A DNA stretch of 64,000 nucleotides. It comes from Actinomycetes bacterium (lineage in GTDB: Bacteria > Actinomycetota > Acidimicrobiia > Acidimicrobiales > Palsa-688). The first letter of the stretch is position 1, and every line of letters begins with the position of its first letter. The notes below the pieces were generated by a model. That model was not told the origin of the DNA. It saw only the letters and a list, made by a program, of their open reading frames with translations, and did no database searches. The stretch spans positions 124,001 through 188,000 of the forward strand of contig JAJZMF010000026.1 in NCBI GenBank assembly GCA_021850325.1, in the 5' to 3' direction. Both the position numbers and the translations under genes were made by a program. Of this stretch, positions 10,597-18,843 are shown in pieces.

Positions 10597-10959
10597 TCAG
10601 GAGGCCGTGTTGACCATATGGGCCGCAGAGGCCCGGAAGTAGCCCATCAGCTGGGCGTTGTCCAGTGCGCTCAGGCCCGCCGCCTCGACAGCGGCGCTCA
10701 TGTGGGCAAGCCAGTGGTCCCGTTCCTCGGGCCCCACCCGGAAGGGCAGGTGGCGTGCCCGGAGCTGAGGGTGGCCCCGCTCGTCCTCGTAGGCGCGCGG
10801 GCCTCCCCAGAACTGGGCCAGGAACAGGCAGAGGTGCCTGCGGGAGGGGCCGAGGTCCTCGGGGTAAAGGGGCCGGAGCAGCGGGTCGGCCTCCACGCCG
10901 GCGTAGAAGCGTTCGGTCAACGCCTCGAAGAAGGCCATCCCGCCCAAGCGGTCGTACAT
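10597..10959 (-). CDS. glbO: Truncated haemoglobin, group II (GlbO-like)
   Basis: 120 residues from ATG 10959, which has GAGG about 7 nt upstream; a longer frame to 11160 exists but lacks globin features. YDRLGGMAFFEALTERFYAGV is the start of a 2-on-2 globin (exact match split here at 20 residues: YDRLGGMAFFEALTERFYAG). PLYPEDL, FLAQFWGG, and the haem-ligand His region HLPF follow, with a Trp (DHWLAHM) at the G8 position typical of group II. Likely binds O2 or NO, or acts in oxidant protection. Precedes an alpha/beta hydrolase in an apparent operon. Confidence 0.92.
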   Translation of the reverse strand: MYDRLGGMAFFEALTERFYAGVEADPLLRPLYPEDLGPSRRHLCLFLAQFWGGPRAYEDERGHPQLRARHLPFRVGPEERDHWLAHMSAAVEAAGLSALDNAQLMGYFRASAAHMVNTAS

Positions 10960-11084
10960 CGTCGTCCTCGTAGTTGGCAAACCAACCTCGTCCCCGCCGG
11001 TGACACGGTCCGCTCCCGGCGCCGGGGCCAACTTAACAAAACGGCCGCGCACCTCGTGAGCGGCCAGCGGAGGGGAGGCCCCGG

Positions 11085-11090
11085 TACGAT
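11085..11090 (+). promoter_or_regulatory. Leaderless-type -10 for the DUF732-like gene
   Basis: TACGAT stands 6 nt before GTG 11097, with no Shine-Dalgarno between them, matching the leaderless arrangement seen at several genes in the window. Confidence 0.45.
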
Positions 11091-11096
11091 CGGTGC

Positions 11097-11456
11097 GTGC
11101 CTGCCCCCTGCGTGCCGGCCAGAGCCCTCTGGCGTACCGGGCTGGTCGCTCTCGGTGCACTGAGCCTGGCCGCCTGTGGCGCCGGCCCCGCCCCCAGCGC
11201 CCGGCAGTCCCAGAGGTTCCTCGACTCGGTCTACAGCCGGGCTCCCGACATCGGCGGCTATCGTACGGGCAGCCAACTGGTGAGCCTGGGCGAGGCGGTC
11301 TGCGCGGACCTGCGGGCCGGTGCCACCGTGCAACAGCTGGCCGACCGTACCCGGCTGCTCGAGGGCAGCGTCGCCCTGCCCCCGGCCGACCTGGGAGTCG
11401 TCATTTCGGCCGCCGTCGCCGTGATGTGCCCCACGTTCAGCAAGCTGCTGGGCTGA
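11097..11456 (+). CDS. Small DUF732-like lipoprotein
   Basis: 119 residues. A signal peptide ends in the lipobox LAAC (Cys about residue 25), so the mature protein should be lipid-anchored on the outer face of the membrane. The mature part, with SQRFLDSVYSRAP, a Cys-containing helix LGEAVCADLRAG and a second Cys in AVMCPTFSKLL, resembles the DUF732 fold common in mycobacterial secreted proteins, where two Cys form a disulfide. Function unknown. It runs toward the FHA gene on the other strand with a 16-nt gap. Confidence 0.75.
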   Translation: MPAPCVPARALWRTGLVALGALSLAACGAGPAPSARQSQRFLDSVYSRAPDIGGYRTGSQLVSLGEAVCADLRAGATVQQLADRTRLLEGSVALPPADLGVVISAAVAVMCPTFSKLLG

Positions 11457-11472: not shown

Positions 11473-12882
11473 TCATCCCGGCCAGGCGGCGAGGTACGTG
11501 AAGACCCGGCCACCGCACGACAGGTGGGAGCCTGTGGCCAGCTCGCGCTGTTCGTGGCGGGCCAGCAGGGCCCAGCCCGGGCCCCCCGGTGCCTGGACGC
11601 TGGTGCCCCCCTCCGCCCCCCGGTCCACGAGGTAGACGCCCCAGTCCCGTACCTGCACCTCGCAGTGCACAGGGGCCATCATGTGGTTGTTCCCCGCCAG
11701 CATGGTGATGGCCTGGGCGGTGCCTGAACGGGCCTCCGGGGAGCTGCCCGCCTCGCTGCCGATGAGGCAGGTGCGCTCCAGGGACCACACGGAGCCGTCG
11801 TCGGCCAACAGCACCCCCAGGGAGGGACGCGGCCCGCTGACCTGGGCCAGACCGGACAGGGAGCGGCCGCACAGGGCGCAAGTAGCAGAGCGGGGGTGGT
11901 TCATGTGGCCCTCTTCGCAGCGCAGGCCCACCACCTGGGGCCGGTCGGCGGCCGCGCCGGTGACGGCGCCGGCCTGGGAGAGAGGCCCTGTCCCGGCGGG
12001 GAGGACCGAGCGCAGGTCGACCAGGTTGGGGTTGCCCGCTGAGGGGGGCGCGGCCGGCAGCTCCGGCCCCGGTGGCGCGGAGGGCACCGGCCCGGGCGAC
12101 GTCGTCGGGCCGCCCCCCTGGCCCGGCCCGCCCCCCTGGCCCGGCCCGCCCCCCTGGCTCGGGAAGCCACCTTGGACGGGAGCCAACTGGCCGGTGGCAG
12201 CGCCCACCGGCCCGGCCTGAGGCCCCGCCGTGGCCTGGGGGGAGGGCGCGAGCACAGGGCTCGTCGGTGCGGGCCCCGGGGCCTGCGGGACGGGGGCCTG
12301 AGCGGTCGGCCCGGCCACGTAGCCGGGGCCTCCGTAGGCGGTTGTCGTGCCCTGCGCATGGTCCGCACCGGCAACAGCCGGCCCAACAGAGGCGGACGGT
12401 GCCGGGGTGGGCGGGGCGGCGGGGCGGAGCATCACGAAGCCGGCTCCGGGGACCGTTCCCGAACGCAGGTCGAACGGGTTCCCCGGGGGGCTCTGGGGCG
12501 GTGGCGGTGCTCCGTAGGGGAGGACGATGAGCGGCCACGGGCGCCCGATCGGGGCGACCATCCACCCCGGCACGGGTTGGGGTGCCAGCCAGCGCCCGCT
12601 GTCCCAGGCCTGGACCGGCCCGTGGAGGAACAAGGTGAGCCCGTTGGCTCCCGGGCCGACGACGGCAAAGGGCGCCTGTGGCTCGGGGTCGCCCCGCTGC
12701 AGGATGGAGATGAACGAGTTGGCCAGCTGGTCGCCGCACTGTGGCGAGCCGGCGAGCCTCTGGGCCTCCGTCACCAGGTGGGCCTGGAGGGCTGGGCTGG
12801 CCTGGGGCCCGGCCCACACCGCCAGGTCCCCGAAGCGGGCGACCAGCCCGGGCCCGGGGAGGACTTCGAGTTTGTCTGGCAC
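11473..12882 (-). CDS. FHA-domain protein with zinc ribbon and Gly/Pro-rich linker
   Basis: 469 residues from GTG 12882, with AGGAGG 7 nt upstream. Four parts: a folded N-terminal region of about 150 residues of unknown type; a low-complexity Pro/Gly/Gln linker with three 6-residue GQGGGP-type repeats (encoded by 18-bp repeats near 12111-12165); a zinc-ribbon-like element CEEGH ... CALC near residue 321-342; and a C-terminal FHA domain (LGVLLADDG, CLIGSE, VHCEVQVRDWG, VDRGAEGGT). FHA domains bind phosphothreonine. The same ribbon-plus-FHA layout occurs, from memory, in actinobacterial proteins near type VII secretion loci. The gene directly follows the pseudokinase. Confidence 0.75.
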   Translation of the reverse strand: MPDKLEVLPGPGLVARFGDLAVWAGPQASPALQAHLVTEAQRLAGSPQCGDQLANSFISILQRGDPEPQAPFAVVGPGANGLTLFLHGPVQAWDSGRWLAPQPVPGWMVAPIGRPWPLIVLPYGAPPPPQSPPGNPFDLRSGTVPGAGFVMLRPAAPPTPAPSASVGPAVAGADHAQGTTTAYGGPGYVAGPTAQAPVPQAPGPAPTSPVLAPSPQATAGPQAGPVGAATGQLAPVQGGFPSQGGGPGQGGGPGQGGGPTTSPGPVPSAPPGPELPAAPPSAGNPNLVDLRSVLPAGTGPLSQAGAVTGAAADRPQVVGLRCEEGHMNHPRSATCALCGRSLSGLAQVSGPRPSLGVLLADDGSVWSLERTCLIGSEAGSSPEARSGTAQAITMLAGNNHMMAPVHCEVQVRDWGVYLVDRGAEGGTSVQAPGGPGWALLARHEQRELATGSHLSCGGRVFTYLAAWPG

Positions 12883-12912
12883 CTTTTTACCTCCTGCGCG
12901 TCCGAGCTGCGG

Positions 12913-13716
12913 TCAGCCGAGCTCGGCGGCCTGGTCGAGACGGTCGGCTACCTCTGAAGCGGTGCGGGGCCTGGACGACGGGTCGGTGGCCAGGCACTGG
13001 CGAGCTAGTTCGGCTACGAGGGGCGGGGCCTCGGGCGGCACGGGTTGGGGGACGGCCAACAACTGGGCCAGAGCCTGGACGACGGGGACGTCGTCCTTGT
13101 CGGGGAACGGAGGCGAGCCCGAGGTTGCCGCCTGAAGGGTTGCCCCCAGTGCCCAGATGTCCGACCAGCGGCCGGCCTCGCCTCTCAGGAGATGGGGGTC
13201 GACGAAGCCGAGCGGCGGGTAGCCGACCTGCAGCAGTGGTTGGTGCCCGTCGGCCAGGGGCGGCGGTGCCAGTACGGCCTGGCCATCGGACGGCCCCGTG
13301 AGGCAGATGGCCTGAGGGCAGATGCCGCCATGGAGCACGCCCGCCTCGTGCAGGGCGTGCGCCCCCCGGGCAGCTGCGGCCAGGGCTCGCAGCTTGGCGG
13401 CCATCGTCATCCCCTGGGCACCGGCCAGCGTGCCCGTGACAACCGTGGTTGCGGAGGTGAAGACGACCGGCCGCCCCGCCCATTCACCCGCCCCGGCTTC
13501 CAGCCAATCGGGCAGATGGGGTGAGCGGACCGCAGCCACATGCTCGAGGCGCCGGCGCACGCTGGTCAGGGGGGCGCGGGCGAGAGGCCCGAGCACCCAG
13601 ACCGTGACCGTGCCCCCGCCCCCGAGACGGGCGGGCCGTCGGGCGCTCGAGCAGGGTAGGACACCGTCGTCGGCGACCGCGCCGATGACCTCGTAATCGG
13701 CTAGCTGGTTAGCCAC
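12913..13716 (-). CDS. Ser/Thr pseudokinase
   Basis: 267 residues from GTG 13716 (AAGGAGG 7 nt upstream). The C-lobe of a Hanks-type kinase can be traced: HALHEAGVLHGGICPQAI (123ff), WSDIWALG at 184-191 and the conserved Arg in DPSSRPR at 249. The catalytic residues are gone: the HRD Asp is Gly (HGG, 129-131), the VAIK Lys position reads VTVWV, no DFG is present and the glycine loop is absent. It should not phosphorylate and probably acts as a scaffold or phosphoprotein reader. It lies between a membrane protein and an FHA protein on the same strand. No transmembrane segment is seen. Confidence 0.78.
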   Translation of the reverse strand: MANQLADYEVIGAVADDGVLPCSSARRPARLGGGGTVTVWVLGPLARAPLTSVRRRLEHVAAVRSPHLPDWLEAGAGEWAGRPVVFTSATTVVTGTLAGAQGMTMAAKLRALAAAARGAHALHEAGVLHGGICPQAICLTGPSDGQAVLAPPPLADGHQPLLQVGYPPLGFVDPHLLRGEAGRWSDIWALGATLQAATSGSPPFPDKDDVPVVQALAQLLAVPQPVPPEAPPLVAELARQCLATDPSSRPRTASEVADRLDQAAELG

Positions 13717-13803
13717 TAGGTAGCCTCCTTGGACCTTTGCAGGAGGACGCTACCGGCTGCGCACCGGGGTGCGTCGGAAGGACCACGGCCCACGGCCCGG
13801 TCG

Positions 13804-14412
13804 CTAAGGGGCGAGGGCCAGCGTGGACAGGGAGCGCCGGCCGGTCGGTGAGGCGGGGACGGCTACCAGCCAGACCAGCGACTGGGTGCCCCGGGCCCAT
13901 GCCATGACGGCCTCGGCTGCACGTCCACCGCTCAGGGCGAAGTGGTACTCGAAGGCCCGGTCCGCGTTCTTCAGCCGGACCGGGATGTAGGACCGCCCGG
14001 TGTAGGGCCCCCCGAGGAAGGTCGTCACGATGGCGGGAGGGGGCGACGCCGGGGAAGGAGGCCGGGTGGCCTGGGTCACCGACTCGCCCACGCCACGGCC
14101 CCCGGCCCCGAAGAACACGTCCCCGGCGGGATCGCTCAGGCCCTGTTCCAGGGACCACGAGCGGGGCACCGAGAAGCTGGCGTATATCCCGGGCACTGCC
14201 TTCCAGCCCGTGGGCACCGGAGGCTTGACCGTGGGGTAGTTGCCGTTGAGGCCCACTGCGGCCCAGGCCACGATGCCCACACAAACCGGGGTGATGCCGA
14301 GGACTGCCAGCCATGTCCAGGTACGGCGCCGGTCCGCCCGGGTGGGCTGGTGCAGACGGGGGTCGTGCCGGGGCGGGCCGGTGGTGGCGCCCGGGCCGAG
14401 CGTGGCCGTCAA
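13804..14412 (-). CDS. Single-pass membrane protein of unknown function
   Basis: 202 residues if it starts at TTG 14412, which overlaps the stop of the Fur-family gene as TTGA; ATG 14484 is possible but would overlap that gene by 76 nt. A basic N-terminal tail is followed by a transmembrane helix (WLAVLGITPVCVGIVAWAAV) and an extracellular domain of about 150 residues with no family I recognise. The outside part includes SFSVPRSWSLEQGL, reminiscent of PsbP-like lipoprotein folds, but this is only an impression. Neighbours are Fur upstream and the pseudokinase 87 nt downstream. Confidence 0.6.
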   Translation of the reverse strand: MTATLGPGATTGPPRHDPRLHQPTRADRRRTWTWLAVLGITPVCVGIVAWAAVGLNGNYPTVKPPVPTGWKAVPGIYASFSVPRSWSLEQGLSDPAGDVFFGAGGRGVGESVTQATRPPSPASPPPAIVTTFLGGPYTGRSYIPVRLKNADRAFEYHFALSGGRAAEAVMAWARGTQSLVWLVAVPASPTGRRSLSTLALAP

Positions 14413-14942
14413 GGCCGGCCTGCCGGCTGGGGCGTGGCCCGGGGCAGGGCCTGGTCCCGGCGAGCGGAGCGTGCTCTGTTGCATGTGGCACAGGCACCCA
14501 GGACGTCCAGCCTGTGGTCGTCGCTGACGAACCCGCTGGAACCGGTCAGCGAGGCCAGGTAACTGTTCATGGCCTGTTCGAAAGCCGGTGTGGGCGTCAC
14601 GTCGAGCACCTGGCCGCAGTAGGTGCACACCAGGTGGTGGTGGTGCTCGGTGATGTCCTCGGCCAGCTCGAAGCGGAAGTACCCGTCGTTGGCCGCCACC
14701 CGCCGGACGACCCCGGCCTGCTGCAGGTCGACCAGGTGACGGTAGGCGGAGCTGCGAGGCATGCGGGGTGCCTGCTCGGCGATGTCCTCGATGCTGAGCG
14801 GGTGGCCGGCCTGAGCCAGAAGGTCGACCAGGGCACGCCGCCCGCTCGTGTAGCGCTGGGCCGCCTGCCGCAGCCGTTCCTCCACCAGGCCGTGCAGGCT
14901 GTCGCCGCCGGTCTTGTCTCCCGGGCCCCGGCTCACCGTCAC
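14409..14942 (-). CDS. Fur-family metalloregulator
   Basis: 177 residues. The winged helix includes YTSGRRALVDLLAQAGHPLS and SSAYRHLVDLQQAGVVRR; the dimer/metal part has EHHHHLVCTYCGQVLDV with three adjacent His and a CxxC, and a second CxxC (CATC) near the C-terminus, the structural zinc site of many Fur/Zur proteins. GTG 14942 overlaps the stop of the upstream permease (GTGA). As the last transport-linked gene of the metal-import operon it probably represses that operon at the palindrome near 18531. Zur is the first guess, but the binding-protein ligands leave manganese or iron possible. Confidence 0.88.
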   Translation of the reverse strand: MTVSRGPGDKTGGDSLHGLVEERLRQAAQRYTSGRRALVDLLAQAGHPLSIEDIAEQAPRMPRSSAYRHLVDLQQAGVVRRVAANDGYFRFELAEDITEHHHHLVCTYCGQVLDVTPTPAFEQAMNSYLASLTGSSGFVSDDHRLDVLGACATCNRARSARRDQALPRATPQPAGRP

Positions 14943-15766
14943 GACCTTACCGCCGCACGGGCACGCGCCCGCCGTCGGTGGGACGAGGCGGCGCGGCCCA
15001 CCAGGTACCACACGACCGCCGACGCACCCACGAACGCCCCCAGCGGCCAGTTGCTGGCGTAGGAGGCGACCATGGCCGTCCACACCGTTACCAGGGCCAG
15101 CCCGACGGACAGGGCGAGGGCGGCGCCGGGCCGGTCCGTGAGCGACCGGGACGCTGCGGGCGGGCCGATCATGAGGCTGAAGACGAGCAGGGCACCCACC
15201 ACGGGCAGGGCCAAGGTGGTGGCGGCTCCGACCGCCAACAGGAACCAGAAGTCGGCCCGTTCGGGCACCACGCCCCGCGCCCGGGCCAGCTCGGGTGCCG
15301 CTGCTGTGAGCAGCAGCCTCCGGTAGGAGGAGAGGACCAAACCGGTGCAGGCCACGCCCAGGCCCACCGTGGGCCAGAGGTAGCCGGCGCTGACCGCCAG
15401 CGGTTCGCCGAAGAGCAGGGAGAACGTCTGGTCGGCGTACTGGGACCCCAGGCTGAGGAAGAGGGCGCCTGTTGCCAGCATGCCCACCAGCACCAGGGCC
15501 GTGACCACGTCGTGCCGGCCCTTACGGCCCCAGCGGGCGATCGCAACCACTGCGGCCAGTGCCACCAGGCCCGAGCCGAGCAGAGTGCTCGTGCCCACCA
15601 GCGCCGCCCCGGCCGCACCCGTGAACGCGCCCTGGGGTATGGCGTGAGCAGCGAAGGTCGCCCCCCTCACCACGACGAAGAAGCCGACCACGCCGGCCAC
15701 GACAGCGACCACGCTGGTGGCCTCCCAGCTGTGGACCATGAAGGGGGAGAAGAGCCCGGAGAACAC
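14939..15766 (-). CDS. Metal ABC transporter permease, second copy (ABC-3 family)
   Basis: 275 residues, eight or nine hydrophobic helices, with the ABC-3 hallmark GATFAAHAIPQGAFTGAAGA after the first helices (cytoplasmic/core segment) and SLMIGPPAASRSL near the C-terminus. GTG 15766 is 3 nt after the stop of the first permease and has GAGGG 6 nt upstream. The longer open frame reaching 16696 is a shadow of the first permease. Two different permeases suggest a heterodimeric channel, as in TroCD or SitCD systems. Confidence 0.88.
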   Translation of the reverse strand: MFSGLFSPFMVHSWEATSVVAVVAGVVGFFVVVRGATFAAHAIPQGAFTGAAGAALVGTSTLLGSGLVALAAVVAIARWGRKGRHDVVTALVLVGMLATGALFLSLGSQYADQTFSLLFGEPLAVSAGYLWPTVGLGVACTGLVLSSYRRLLLTAAAPELARARGVVPERADFWFLLAVGAATTLALPVVGALLVFSLMIGPPAASRSLTDRPGAALALSVGLALVTVWTAMVASYASNWPLGAFVGASAVVWYLVGRAASSHRRRARARAAVRS

Positions 15767-15768
15767 GG

Positions 15769-16659
15769 CTAGCCCTCGCTCTGCTGCGATGCCCGGCCCC
15801 GCGCGTGCATGTGACCGCTGGCCACGCGGGAGGCCCCGTAGGCCAGGAGCACCAGCGCCACGACAAAGAAGCTCACCGGCCAGCCCTGGCCTCGGGGCGG
15901 CCAGTTGAAGCTGTCGTAGGACAGGACGATGCCCCCCCAGACGCTCAGCATGGCCACCAGGCCGGCCCATGCCATGGCCCTGCCCGGCCGGCGGACCACG
16001 CCCAGCGTGGCGGCTGCCGGTCCGACCACCAGCGCCGTGGACAGCACAGCGCCCACGGTCAGGGCGGAGAGGGACACCGCGGCGGCCAGGGCACCGAGGT
16101 AGGCGAGCCCGACCAGGCGCACAGGCACGCCCCTGGCCGCTGCCAGTTCGGGGCTGACCGAGCTGAGCAGCAGGGGGCGGTAGGCAAGGGCCACCAGGCC
16201 GACGGCCAGGCCGCCCAGCGCCACGACCCAGGGCCAGCTGGACGTGCTCACCGAGAAGATGGACCCGAACAGCACGGTCACGGCGGCACCGCTGGCGTTC
16301 CGGGTCGTGGCGCTCAGGTAGAGGAACAGAGCCGAGAGCCCCAGCGCCGCGCCGAGCACGGCACCGGTGACAAGGTCCCGGTCCCGCTCGCGGCGGGCGC
16401 TGAGGGCTTCCATGGACGCCGCTCCGGTGGCTGCAGCGGCGGCGAAGCCGACCACCGGGCTGATCCCGAGGAGCACCGCGGCAGACCCTCCGGTCGAGGT
16501 GATGTCGGCGAAAGCGTGGCCGGCGAAGGACTGGCGCCGCAGCACCGCCAGCACGCCCACGGGCGCGCAGACCAGTGCGACCATGGTCCCGGTCACCAGG
16601 GCTGCCTGTACGGGGCCGTTGGAGAAGAAGCCGGGGGCGAAGAGCCAGCTCACTGTCAC
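15769..16659 (-). CDS. Metal ABC transporter permease, first copy (ABC-3 family)
   Basis: 296 residues. GTG 16659 overlaps the stop of the ATPase gene (GTGA); GGGAGG just upstream would suit GTG 16653 better (9 nt), so the start is uncertain by two codons. SFAGHAFADITSTGGSAAVLLG is the conserved ABC-3 core (quoted part SFAGHAFADITSTGG), and ALVVGPAAATLGVVRRPGR matches the C-terminal signature. The protein ends in a short polar His-containing tail (GHMHARG), which might touch metal. Works with the second permease, the ATPase and the binding protein. Confidence 0.88.
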   Translation of the reverse strand: MTVSWLFAPGFFSNGPVQAALVTGTMVALVCAPVGVLAVLRRQSFAGHAFADITSTGGSAAVLLGISPVVGFAAAAATGAASMEALSARRERDRDLVTGAVLGAALGLSALFLYLSATTRNASGAAVTVLFGSIFSVSTSSWPWVVALGGLAVGLVALAYRPLLLSSVSPELAAARGVPVRLVGLAYLGALAAAVSLSALTVGAVLSTALVVGPAAATLGVVRRPGRAMAWAGLVAMLSVWGGIVLSYDSFNWPPRGQGWPVSFFVVALVLLAYGASRVASGHMHARGRASQQSEG

Positions 16660-17555
16660 CATCCTCCCGGCGCGGCACCTGGGGCGCCCAGCGCACCTGA
16701 AGGGGCGGTCAGGGGGTCGCAATCGTCGAGGGCCCCGTCGCAGCCGTCGTCGGCGTGCTCGAGGCCGCCGACCGACACGATCACGCGCCCGTGGGCACGG
16801 AGCACGTCCACATGGTGCCCGTACAGAGCGCTCAGGACGTCGCTGCGCACCACCTCGTCCGTGGTGCCGGTGGCAGCCCGCCCCGAGGCGAGGTACACGG
16901 CTCTGTCCATCACCCCGAGCATGGGGTTTATGTCATGAGTGGACATCAGGACGGCCACCCCTTGGGAGCGGGCGATCCGGCCCAGCAGCGCGACGGTGGC
17001 CTGGGCACTGCGCATGTCCAGGTTGGCCAGGGGCTCGTCCAGGAGCAGGAGCTGCGGGCGACCGGCCAGGGCATGGGCGATCAGTACCCGCTGCTGCTCG
17101 CCCCCTGAGAGCTCACCCACGCGGGCCTCGGCCAGGTGGCTTGCGCCCACGCTCTCGAGCAACCGGTCCGTCAGCCGCCTCTTGGTCTCCGAGGGCAGGG
17201 GCAGGCCCCAGCGGTGCCCGTCCTGGCCCAATTGCACGAGGTCCCTGGCGCGCACCGGCACATCGGCGTCCAACAGCACCTTTTGAGGGACGTAACCGAC
17301 ACCGGCGTGCCCCCCACGGCCGGCACGTTGCCCCGTCCCGAGCCTCACCTCCCCTCCGGCCAGTGGCACCAGGCCGAGCACCGCCCGCAGGAGCGTGGTC
17401 TTGCCCGCGCCGTTGCTACCGATCAACCCGGCGACCTCTCCCCGGGCCAGCTCGAAGGTGACGTCCGTCAGGACCGTACGTCCTCCGAGGCGGACGGTGA
17501 GGCCGTCGACGGACAGGACGGCGTGGGTGGGTGTTGCGGTCGGAGCGGTGGTCAT
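16656..17555 (-). CDS. Metal ABC transporter ATP-binding protein
   Basis: 299 residues. Walker A GSNGAGKTT, signature [15 protein letters not shown], Walker B LLLLDEPLANLD and switch His in STHD are intact, all typical of the ZnuC/TroB branch. The C-terminal tail beyond residue 250 is longer than usual and acidic with one Cys pair (DGCDGALDDCD), which could bind metal and sense load; this is an inference. ATG 17555 is 3 nt after the binding-protein stop. Energises metal import through the two permeases downstream. Confidence 0.9.
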   Translation of the reverse strand: MTTAPTATPTHAVLSVDGLTVRLGGRTVLTDVTFELARGEVAGLIGSNGAGKTTLLRAVLGLVPLAGGEVRLGTGQRAGRGGHAGVGYVPQKVLLDADVPVRARDLVQLGQDGHRWGLPLPSETKRRLTDRLLESVGASHLAEARVGELSGGEQQRVLIAHALAGRPQLLLLDEPLANLDMRSAQATVALLGRIARSQGVAVLMSTHDINPMLGVMDRAVYLASGRAATGTTDEVVRSDVLSALYGHHVDVLRAHGRVIVSVGGLEHADDGCDGALDDCDPLTAPSGALGAPGAAPGGW

Positions 17556-17558
17556 GTC

Positions 17559-18515
17559 TCAGAGCCTCGTTGTGCTGATGCCGCTGGCCACGGCGCGCGA
17601 CAGGGCGTGCACCTCCGCCAGCATCCAGGACTGGTAGTTGTAACCGGGTTGGGGCATGGTCTCGTAGACCGCCACCACCGGGATGCGCGCGGCGCGGGCT
17701 ACGGCGAGGAAGTGCGAGGTCACGGCGTCGGTGACCTGTTCGTTGTAGAGAAGGGCCCTGACCAGGTGACGCGACAGGAGCCGGTCCTGGAAGGCCACGT
17801 CCTGAGGGGAGGGGTCCGTGCCGTTCATCACCGCGGTCTGCAGGGACGCAGGGGTGAGCACACGGGCGCCGGCTGACTGGAGAAGGAAGTCGGCAACCGG
17901 TTCGGTCACAGCCACCGGCGTGCCGGGGTGACCGGCGGCGAACGCCGACACCGCCTGGTGCAGTGGGGCCAGCGACGAGACGAAGGCGTCCGCCCGGGCG
18001 GCGAAGTAGGCCCGGTGGGCGGGCTGCAGACGGGCGAGGTCGCGCGCCACTGCACGGGCAACGAGGGCCATCGTGCCCGGCTGGTACCACAGGTGCGGGT
18101 CGAACGTCCCCGGCCTGGGCCGGACGAGCTGTGCCGCCACGACCACGTACTGGCCCCGAGGGGAGACGGCGTTCTCCAGCTTGTCCATGAAGCCGTCATA
18201 ACCCAGCCCGTTCTGGACGACCAACTGGGCCTCGCTCAGCCGTGACGCCACTTTTGCGCTCGCCTCGAACTCGTGGGGGTCCGTGTTGGGGTTGCTCATG
18301 ACCGAGGTGACGTTCACGTAGCGGCCCCCGACCTGGCTGATCACGTCGGCGTACTGGCTCTCGGCCCCCACCGCCTGCACCTGTGCGCCACCCCCTGGCA
18401 CCGTGGTCGTCCCGCAGGCCGAGGCTCCGGTAGCCGCGGCGAGCAGGGTGAGGGCGGCAGGCACCCGGTGCCGTCGTCCTGGTGCGCTCAAATGCCGGGA
18501 GGACCGGAGGTTCAC
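17559..18515 (-). CDS. Metal-binding lipoprotein of ABC importer (cluster A-I)
   Basis: 318 residues from GTG 18515. Signal peptide with lipobox-like ASAC (Cys about 34). Metal ligands can be placed by family pattern: His in TDPHEFEAS, His in FDPHLWYQPG, Glu in VTEPVADF and probably Glu in VYETMPQPG. A Glu at the third position is the manganese/iron type (PsaA-like); zinc proteins usually have His there and a His-rich loop, which is missing here. So the transported metal is open: zinc, manganese or iron. First gene of the operon, probably translated from a leaderless mRNA (-10 TATACT 6 nt before GTG). Confidence 0.85.
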   Translation of the reverse strand: MNLRSSRHLSAPGRRHRVPAALTLLAAATGASACGTTTVPGGGAQVQAVGAESQYADVISQVGGRYVNVTSVMSNPNTDPHEFEASAKVASRLSEAQLVVQNGLGYDGFMDKLENAVSPRGQYVVVAAQLVRPRPGTFDPHLWYQPGTMALVARAVARDLARLQPAHRAYFAARADAFVSSLAPLHQAVSAFAAGHPGTPVAVTEPVADFLLQSAGARVLTPASLQTAVMNGTDPSPQDVAFQDRLLSRHLVRALLYNEQVTDAVTSHFLAVARAARIPVVAVYETMPQPGYNYQSWMLAEVHALSRAVASGISTTRL

Positions 18516-18521
18516 GGCACA

Positions 18522-18551
18522 AGTATACACTGAGAACAAGTCTCAATCCAA
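18522..18551 (-). promoter_or_regulatory. Promoter and Fur-type operator of the metal importer
   Basis: Reading the minus strand: TTGGAT (-35, 18551-18546), 18-nt spacer, TATACT (-10, 18527-18522), then 6 nt to GTG 18515. The spacer begins with a 15-bp palindrome TGAGA-N5-TCTCA (18531-18545), placed exactly where a repressor would block polymerase. The Fur-family gene in the same operon is the natural partner. The spacing implies a leaderless transcript. Confidence 0.7.
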
Positions 18552-18843
18552 CTCGGGGGCGCCGGTCCCGGTGCTCCTCCCGGGCCCGGCCCGGCCCCTG
18601 TAGTGGGCCTCGCCTGGCATACTCGGGGCGAAGTGCCGGCGAGCACCAAGCTGTGCCGGTGGGAAGTGCCCAGGGCAGTCCAGGACAGCCCAGGGCAGTC
18701 CAGGACAGTTGAGAGGTAGAGGTCTTGCCGCTGCAGCCACCTCCCGTCGACAGGCAGGCCGGGGGCCCCGTCCGGCAGGAGCGCCGGTCCGGCGGCGTGC
18801 CGGCACGCCATGGCGCCCCGGGGCGGATGGGAGCAGCGGAGGG
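18552..18843. other. Intergenic region between the metal operon and lipid kinase
   Basis: About 290 nt with the 20-bp tandem repeat described separately. On the plus strand CATACT at 18618-18623 could be a -10 for the kinase. A 28-residue open frame from GTG 18633 to TAG 18719 runs through the repeat; its coding status is doubtful. Nothing else is seen. Confidence 0.4.
18668..18707. repeat. 20-bp perfect tandem duplication
   Basis: GCCCAGGGCAGTCCAGGACA occurs twice without a gap (18668-18687 and 18688-18707) in the untranslated region before the lipid kinase. The segment also has internal CAGG-xxAG similarity. Function unknown. Confidence 0.85.

Follow-up and report, generated by a model that had tools for sequence, protein, structure and literature searches.

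To our knowledge, pseudokinases and FHA domains that no longer bind their ligand have mostly been studied singly. Two described systems bring a pseudokinase and an FHA protein together. In the type VIIb secretion systems of Bacillota, the pseudokinase EssB/YukC is paired with EssC/YukB, in which the FHA domains of EssC lack the phosphothreonine site (PMC11217815) and the FHA region of YukB and the pseudokinase domain of YukC copurify in E. coli independently of phosphorylation (PMC9600267). In EssB the kinase part shares one polypeptide with a membrane and an extracellular part; in EssC the FHA part is joined to an FtsK-type ATPase. In the Mycobacteriales, FhaA binds the phosphorylated pseudokinase domain of MviN (MurJ), which is fused to the flippase, and the pair is tied to cell-wall growth (PMC11898655).

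The locus described here likewise combines a pseudokinase with an FHA domain lacking its phosphothreonine site, but as separate genes, with a third gene for a single-pass membrane protein (TM). It was found in a window of 64,000 nucleotides (the whole stretch of DNA that was analysed), where the order of transcription on the minus strand is znuA, the ABC ATPase, two ABC-3 permeases, fur, TM, pseudokinase and the FHA/zinc-ribbon gene. The initial annotation had placed the reading frames of the three module proteins correctly in both coordinates and strand; it also proposed that they continue on from the znu-fur operon through a TTGA overlap of fur and TM at 14409-14412, and both the overlap and the gene order are real. 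The features of the locus are as follows.

18531-18545, unstranded: Fur/Zur-type 7-1-7 palindrome TGAGAACAAGTCTCA, in front of znuA
17559-18539, minus strand: ZnuA-type metal-binding protein (PF01297, E 3e-44); the start of znuA is probably a GTG just inside this reading frame
16656-17555, minus strand: ABC ATPase of the importer (PF00005, E 2e-28)
15769-16663, minus strand: ABC-3 permease 1 (PF00950, E 2e-34)
14939-15769, minus strand: ABC-3 permease 2 (PF00950, E 8e-31)
14409-14945, minus strand: Fur/Zur-family repressor, fur (PF01475, E 5e-15)
13804-14412, minus strand: single-pass membrane protein, TM (hydrophobic stretch at residues 35-53)
12913-13716, minus strand: pseudokinase, complete kinase fold without catalytic residues (Pfam, motif table, AlphaFold2)
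11473-12882, minus strand: FHA/zinc-ribbon protein, whole gene (reading frame, alignment, predicted fold)
12418-12882, minus strand: N-terminal domain of the FHA protein, residues 1-155 (confident in the model)
11848-11937, minus strand: zinc ribbon C322-x3-H326-x8-C335-x2-C338 (ligands nearly invariant)
11479-11829, minus strand: FHA domain, phosphothreonine site lost (fold Z about 15; motif table)
11097-11456, plus strand: DUF732 lipoprotein, convergent neighbour kept across the family (PF05305, E 3e-9; synteny)
10597-11010, minus strand: truncated haemoglobin (TrHb), conserved neighbour (PF01152, E 6e-31; synteny)

The pseudokinase (267 aa) ends with the kinase fold and carries no TM-like stretch. 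It matches Pfam Pkinase and PK_Tyr_Ser-Thr, and its AlphaFold2 model is a full two-lobed kinase (pLDDT 89.5, pTM 0.90) that aligns with M. tuberculosis PknB over 250 residues at Z 23.9, which places it within the protein kinase superfamily. The motif table bears out the earlier claim that the catalytic Asp, the ATP Lys, the DFG and the glycine loop have all been lost: ADDGVL stands at the position of the glycine loop, W40 at the VAIK Lys and H129-G130-G131 at the HRD, the HRD Asn is replaced by A136, and the DFG is absent, so that the protein lacks what defines an active Ser/Thr protein kinase. The same erosion extends across the family, with the VAIK Lys missing in 27 of the 27 kinases at the locus and the HRD Asp in 24, while a D near the DFG is retained in some. 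The other three (G012, G015 and G031) read HGD and so retain this Asp; activity may persist in these members. A literature search found no paper on acidimicrobial pseudokinases. The nearest named C-lobe profiles are those of the defence kinases MAD6 and PD-T4-6 (padloc mad6 E 2e-17, PD-T4-6 E 3e-13; NCBIfam MAD6 E 5e-14), which would make this an anti-phage or other defence kinase module. However, the MAD6 score was 51.7 against a cut-off of 460 and the synteny with housekeeping genes is stable family-wide, unlike that of defence islands; as the matches reflect only a generic kinase C-lobe, this candidate was rejected as highly improbable.

The model of the FHA protein has four parts, namely an N-terminal domain (residues 1-155), a disordered Pro/Gly-rich linker, the zinc ribbon and the FHA fold. 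Residues 352-468 form the beta-sandwich of an FHA domain, with structural matches to those of DgcB, OdhI and GarA (Z about 15) and of FhaA (3oun, Z 13.6). The Pfam FHA match reaches only E 0.32, under the Pfam cut-off, and this low score fits with the loss of the signature residues: GS replaces GR, APVH replaces SRxH and GG replaces NG, so that the first motif has lost its Arg, the second its Ser and Arg and the third its Asn. This degeneracy had gone unrecorded in the initial annotation, which called the module a 'phospho-reader'; that description is not borne out, since the residues that bind phosphothreonine are gone and the fold alone is retained. Across the family, both arginines are lost at 23 of 24 loci, the lone exception (G029) keeping both arginines but not the Ser and the His. 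The FHA protein does carry the zinc ribbon of its own that had been ascribed to it, with ligands C322, H326, C335 and C338 nearly invariant in 25 orthologues and paralogues.

The motifs missing from the window protein are intact in a paralogue in the same genome and in outgroups. The paralogue, a second FHA gene that the initial annotation had also missed (L043:8835-9932; G000:C32, about 20 kb), encodes the same N-terminal domain and C-terminal FHA, matches Pfam FHA at E 1e-7 and keeps GR, SRxH and NG; no kinase was found adjacent to it. An NlpC/P60 gene (L043:7279-7929) lies about 900 bases from this paralogue.

Active-looking kinase and FHA pairs occur in several sister families of the same order (G058, G107, G142, G308, G235 and G287). 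They are the same gene pair as in the window, with the two genes next to each other and with the same N-terminal domain and C-terminal FHA, but unlike it have kept both the kinase and the FHA motifs. Their kinases, and that of G048, where the kinase alone was seen at the locus, retain the glycine loop, VAVKVL or VVVKVL, HRDIKPxN and DLG, and the kinase-paired outgroup FHAs are intact in 10 of 10 cases. No TM homologue was found beside the active-looking outgroup pairs. In four further genomes (G033, G216, G258 and G130) the HRD Asp is lost while the FHA is intact, which suggests that kinase catalysis was lost first and the reader later. The outgroup orthologues in which HRA or HRR stands for the HRD beside an intact FHA (L063, L113, L118 and L107) are a sign that catalytic loss in this kinase family may have happened more than once. 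Within the window's own family, the pseudokinases form one clade (support 100/97) apart from ordinary kinases, indicating that the co-loss was in essence a single event on the stem, after which decay went on, and not many independent ones. These motifs and the tree show that the kinase and the FHA protein go back to a working kinase-reader pair and decayed together.

This decay did not release the genes from selection. Between close relatives, the kinase gene has a dN/dS of 0.09-0.10, the FHA gene one of 0.10-0.18 and TM one of about 0.25, values low enough in all three genes to mean that they are kept by purifying selection. Loss of the catalytic and ligand residues could also be expected of passenger genes, a decaying, functionless relic carried along by ftsEX and other core genes nearby, but dN/dS of 0.09-0.25, reading frames intact in nearly all genomes and the retained folds already disfavour that account, making it very improbable. 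A linked kinase and its reader have lost their function jointly while purifying selection still preserves them. The active form survives in close relatives, among which are several with the catalytic Asp alone lost. The order of events and a move from signalling to scaffolding are thereby directly testable by comparing the window's family with its relatives.

The explanation we favour, with the chances for it about even, is that a former Ser/Thr kinase-FHA pair has been turned into a phosphorylation-independent envelope scaffold, similar to EssB/EssC but without a secretion system. The ancestor was an active Ser/Thr kinase-FHA pair, and in the window's family both partners have lost the chemistry of phospho-signalling and kept their folds and their genetic linkage. 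From the linkage, the co-loss and the co-variation described below, we infer a constitutive binding between the pseudokinase and the degenerate FHA protein that requires no phosphorylation, as in EssB-EssC. The single-pass membrane protein would serve as the anchor, and the three proteins together would make up a scaffold at the envelope by which cell-wall remodelling is positioned or restrained. TM has one strong hydrophobic stretch (residues 35-53) and an extracytoplasmic domain of some 140 aa; it has 20 orthologues and gave no Pfam or PDB match. If correct, this would be a second case beside EssB/EssC and a secretion-independent one. The resemblance to proteins near type VII secretion loci suggested at first holds for the pairing of a dead FHA with a pseudokinase, as in EssC/EssB, but not for membership of such a system. 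The window pseudokinase gave no YukC Pfam match and is not an EssB/YukC protein, and a part in type VII secretion was ruled out as no WXG100 protein (PF06013) was found in the window genome (95% complete, 49 contigs).

The other described pairing offers a phospho-dependent alternative, in which a second, active kinase places a phosphate on the pseudokinase or TM for the FHA protein to read, as in MviN-FhaA. That pairing too is actinobacterial and gives the alternative a precedent (PMC11898655), and the window's genome has a further kinase locus and PP2C phosphatases. In the window, however, the FHA side of such a complex is degenerate, having lost the G-R Arg, the S-R-x-H Ser-Arg and the N-G Asn that the same-genome paralogue retains; we consider this alternative distinctly unlikely. 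Unlike that of MviN, the window kinase is not part of a flippase.

The envelope role assigned to the proposed scaffold draws on the gene neighbourhood. The named relatives recovered by a scan of GTDB species genomes are uncultivated MAGs, labelled Acidimicrobiales, Acidimicrobiaceae, 'Actinomycetes' or 'Actinobacteria'. A 4-bp overlap joins the kinase gene to the FHA gene in 13 genomes of the family, as it does in the outgroup G033. Outside the window's sub-clade, a peptidoglycan hydrolase (SLT/NlpC-P60 or CHAP) lies between TM and the kinase, or adjoins the kinase, at 15 of 15 informative loci. These hydrolases are transcribed opposite to the module and are absent from it in the window's own sub-clade, so that their adjacency may not mean a shared function. 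In most loci a truncated haemoglobin, a lipoprotein, an alpha/beta hydrolase and ftsX-ftsE then follow, placing ftsEX a few genes from the module. After removal of the FtsX signal, the correlations among the kinase, FHA and TM distances are 0.41-0.53, against 0.02 for the kinase with TrHb, 0.08 with the alpha/beta hydrolase and -0.23 with the lipoprotein. This amounts to weak evidence of co-variation; TM and TrHb likewise correlate at 0.44. The DUF732 lipoprotein and truncated haemoglobin (window 10597-11456) adjoin the module in almost the whole family. A ParA-type ATPase was seen within the TM-hydrolase-kinase cluster in three genomes from three genera (L042, L056 and L064).

Of 298 genomes in the order, 36 carry homologues of the N-terminal domain of the FHA protein; the domain has no Pfam or PDB sequence match. 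Inspection by eye found PP2C-like motifs and a suggestive strand-helix-helix-strand order. Alignment by hhalign with 26 local PP2C-type domains gave no match, and the fold-search matches of the whole-protein model were taken up by the FHA domain, leaving none for the N-terminal domain. It is conceivable, though quite unlikely, that an entire kinase-phosphatase-FHA circuit has turned to scaffolding, with the pseudokinase, the degenerate FHA and an N-terminal domain that may be a stripped PP2C joined in one complex, free of phosphorylation, that keeps the cell-wall hydrolases or FtsEX in place. Were this true, the stripped circuit would span an entire uncultivated actinobacterial family, with sister families keeping the active form for comparison.

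The link to metal import is local, being confined to two genera. Adjacency of fur and TM is limited to the window's genus g1 (G000, G001 and G002) and to g3 (G004, G026 and, as judged by contig ends, G018), with the 4-bp stop/start overlap shared by G000, G002, G004 and G026, whereas in G001 a short gap separates the two genes. The fur orthologues of sister genera g9, g16, g12 and g4 are located elsewhere, synteny showed no znu-fur linkage in g9, g16 or any other genus examined, and most of the family has TM-kinase-FHA without znu-fur. The palindrome in front of znuA is probably the metal operator of the import operon; it has counterparts before znuA in G001 (TGAGACTGGTTCTCA) and G004 (TGAGACTAAGTCTCA), and a search at ≤2 mismatches returned this single match in its own genome (control 0). 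No Fur/Zur-type palindrome was found near 13.7-14.4 kb, the promoter scan returned no sigma-70-like site, and terminator-like sites were little above chance.

In g1 and g3 the module lies directly downstream of znu-fur and is probably co-transcribed with it, so that its amount may follow zinc or iron supply. The earlier proposal that the module is regulated with metal supply may hold for these two genera, where the fur-TM junction is conserved behind one operator, but does not carry over to the unlinked remainder of the family. A stronger form of this proposal would count the module of g1 and g3 as a working component of the zinc/iron operon, with the FHA zinc ribbon sensing or buffering the metal. 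The shared overlap, the sole operator upstream of znuA and the conserved ribbon are consistent with such a metal-responsive output. However, the ribbon is equally conserved in genomes where the module stands far from znu-fur, g9, g16 and the other genera examined are unlinked, and no operator lies near the module itself, rendering the stronger form unlikely. Upstream of the operon, two near-perfect direct repeats of about 20 bases (ccagggcagtccaggacag) occupy window positions 18669-18708, between znuA and a divergent DAGK-like gene.
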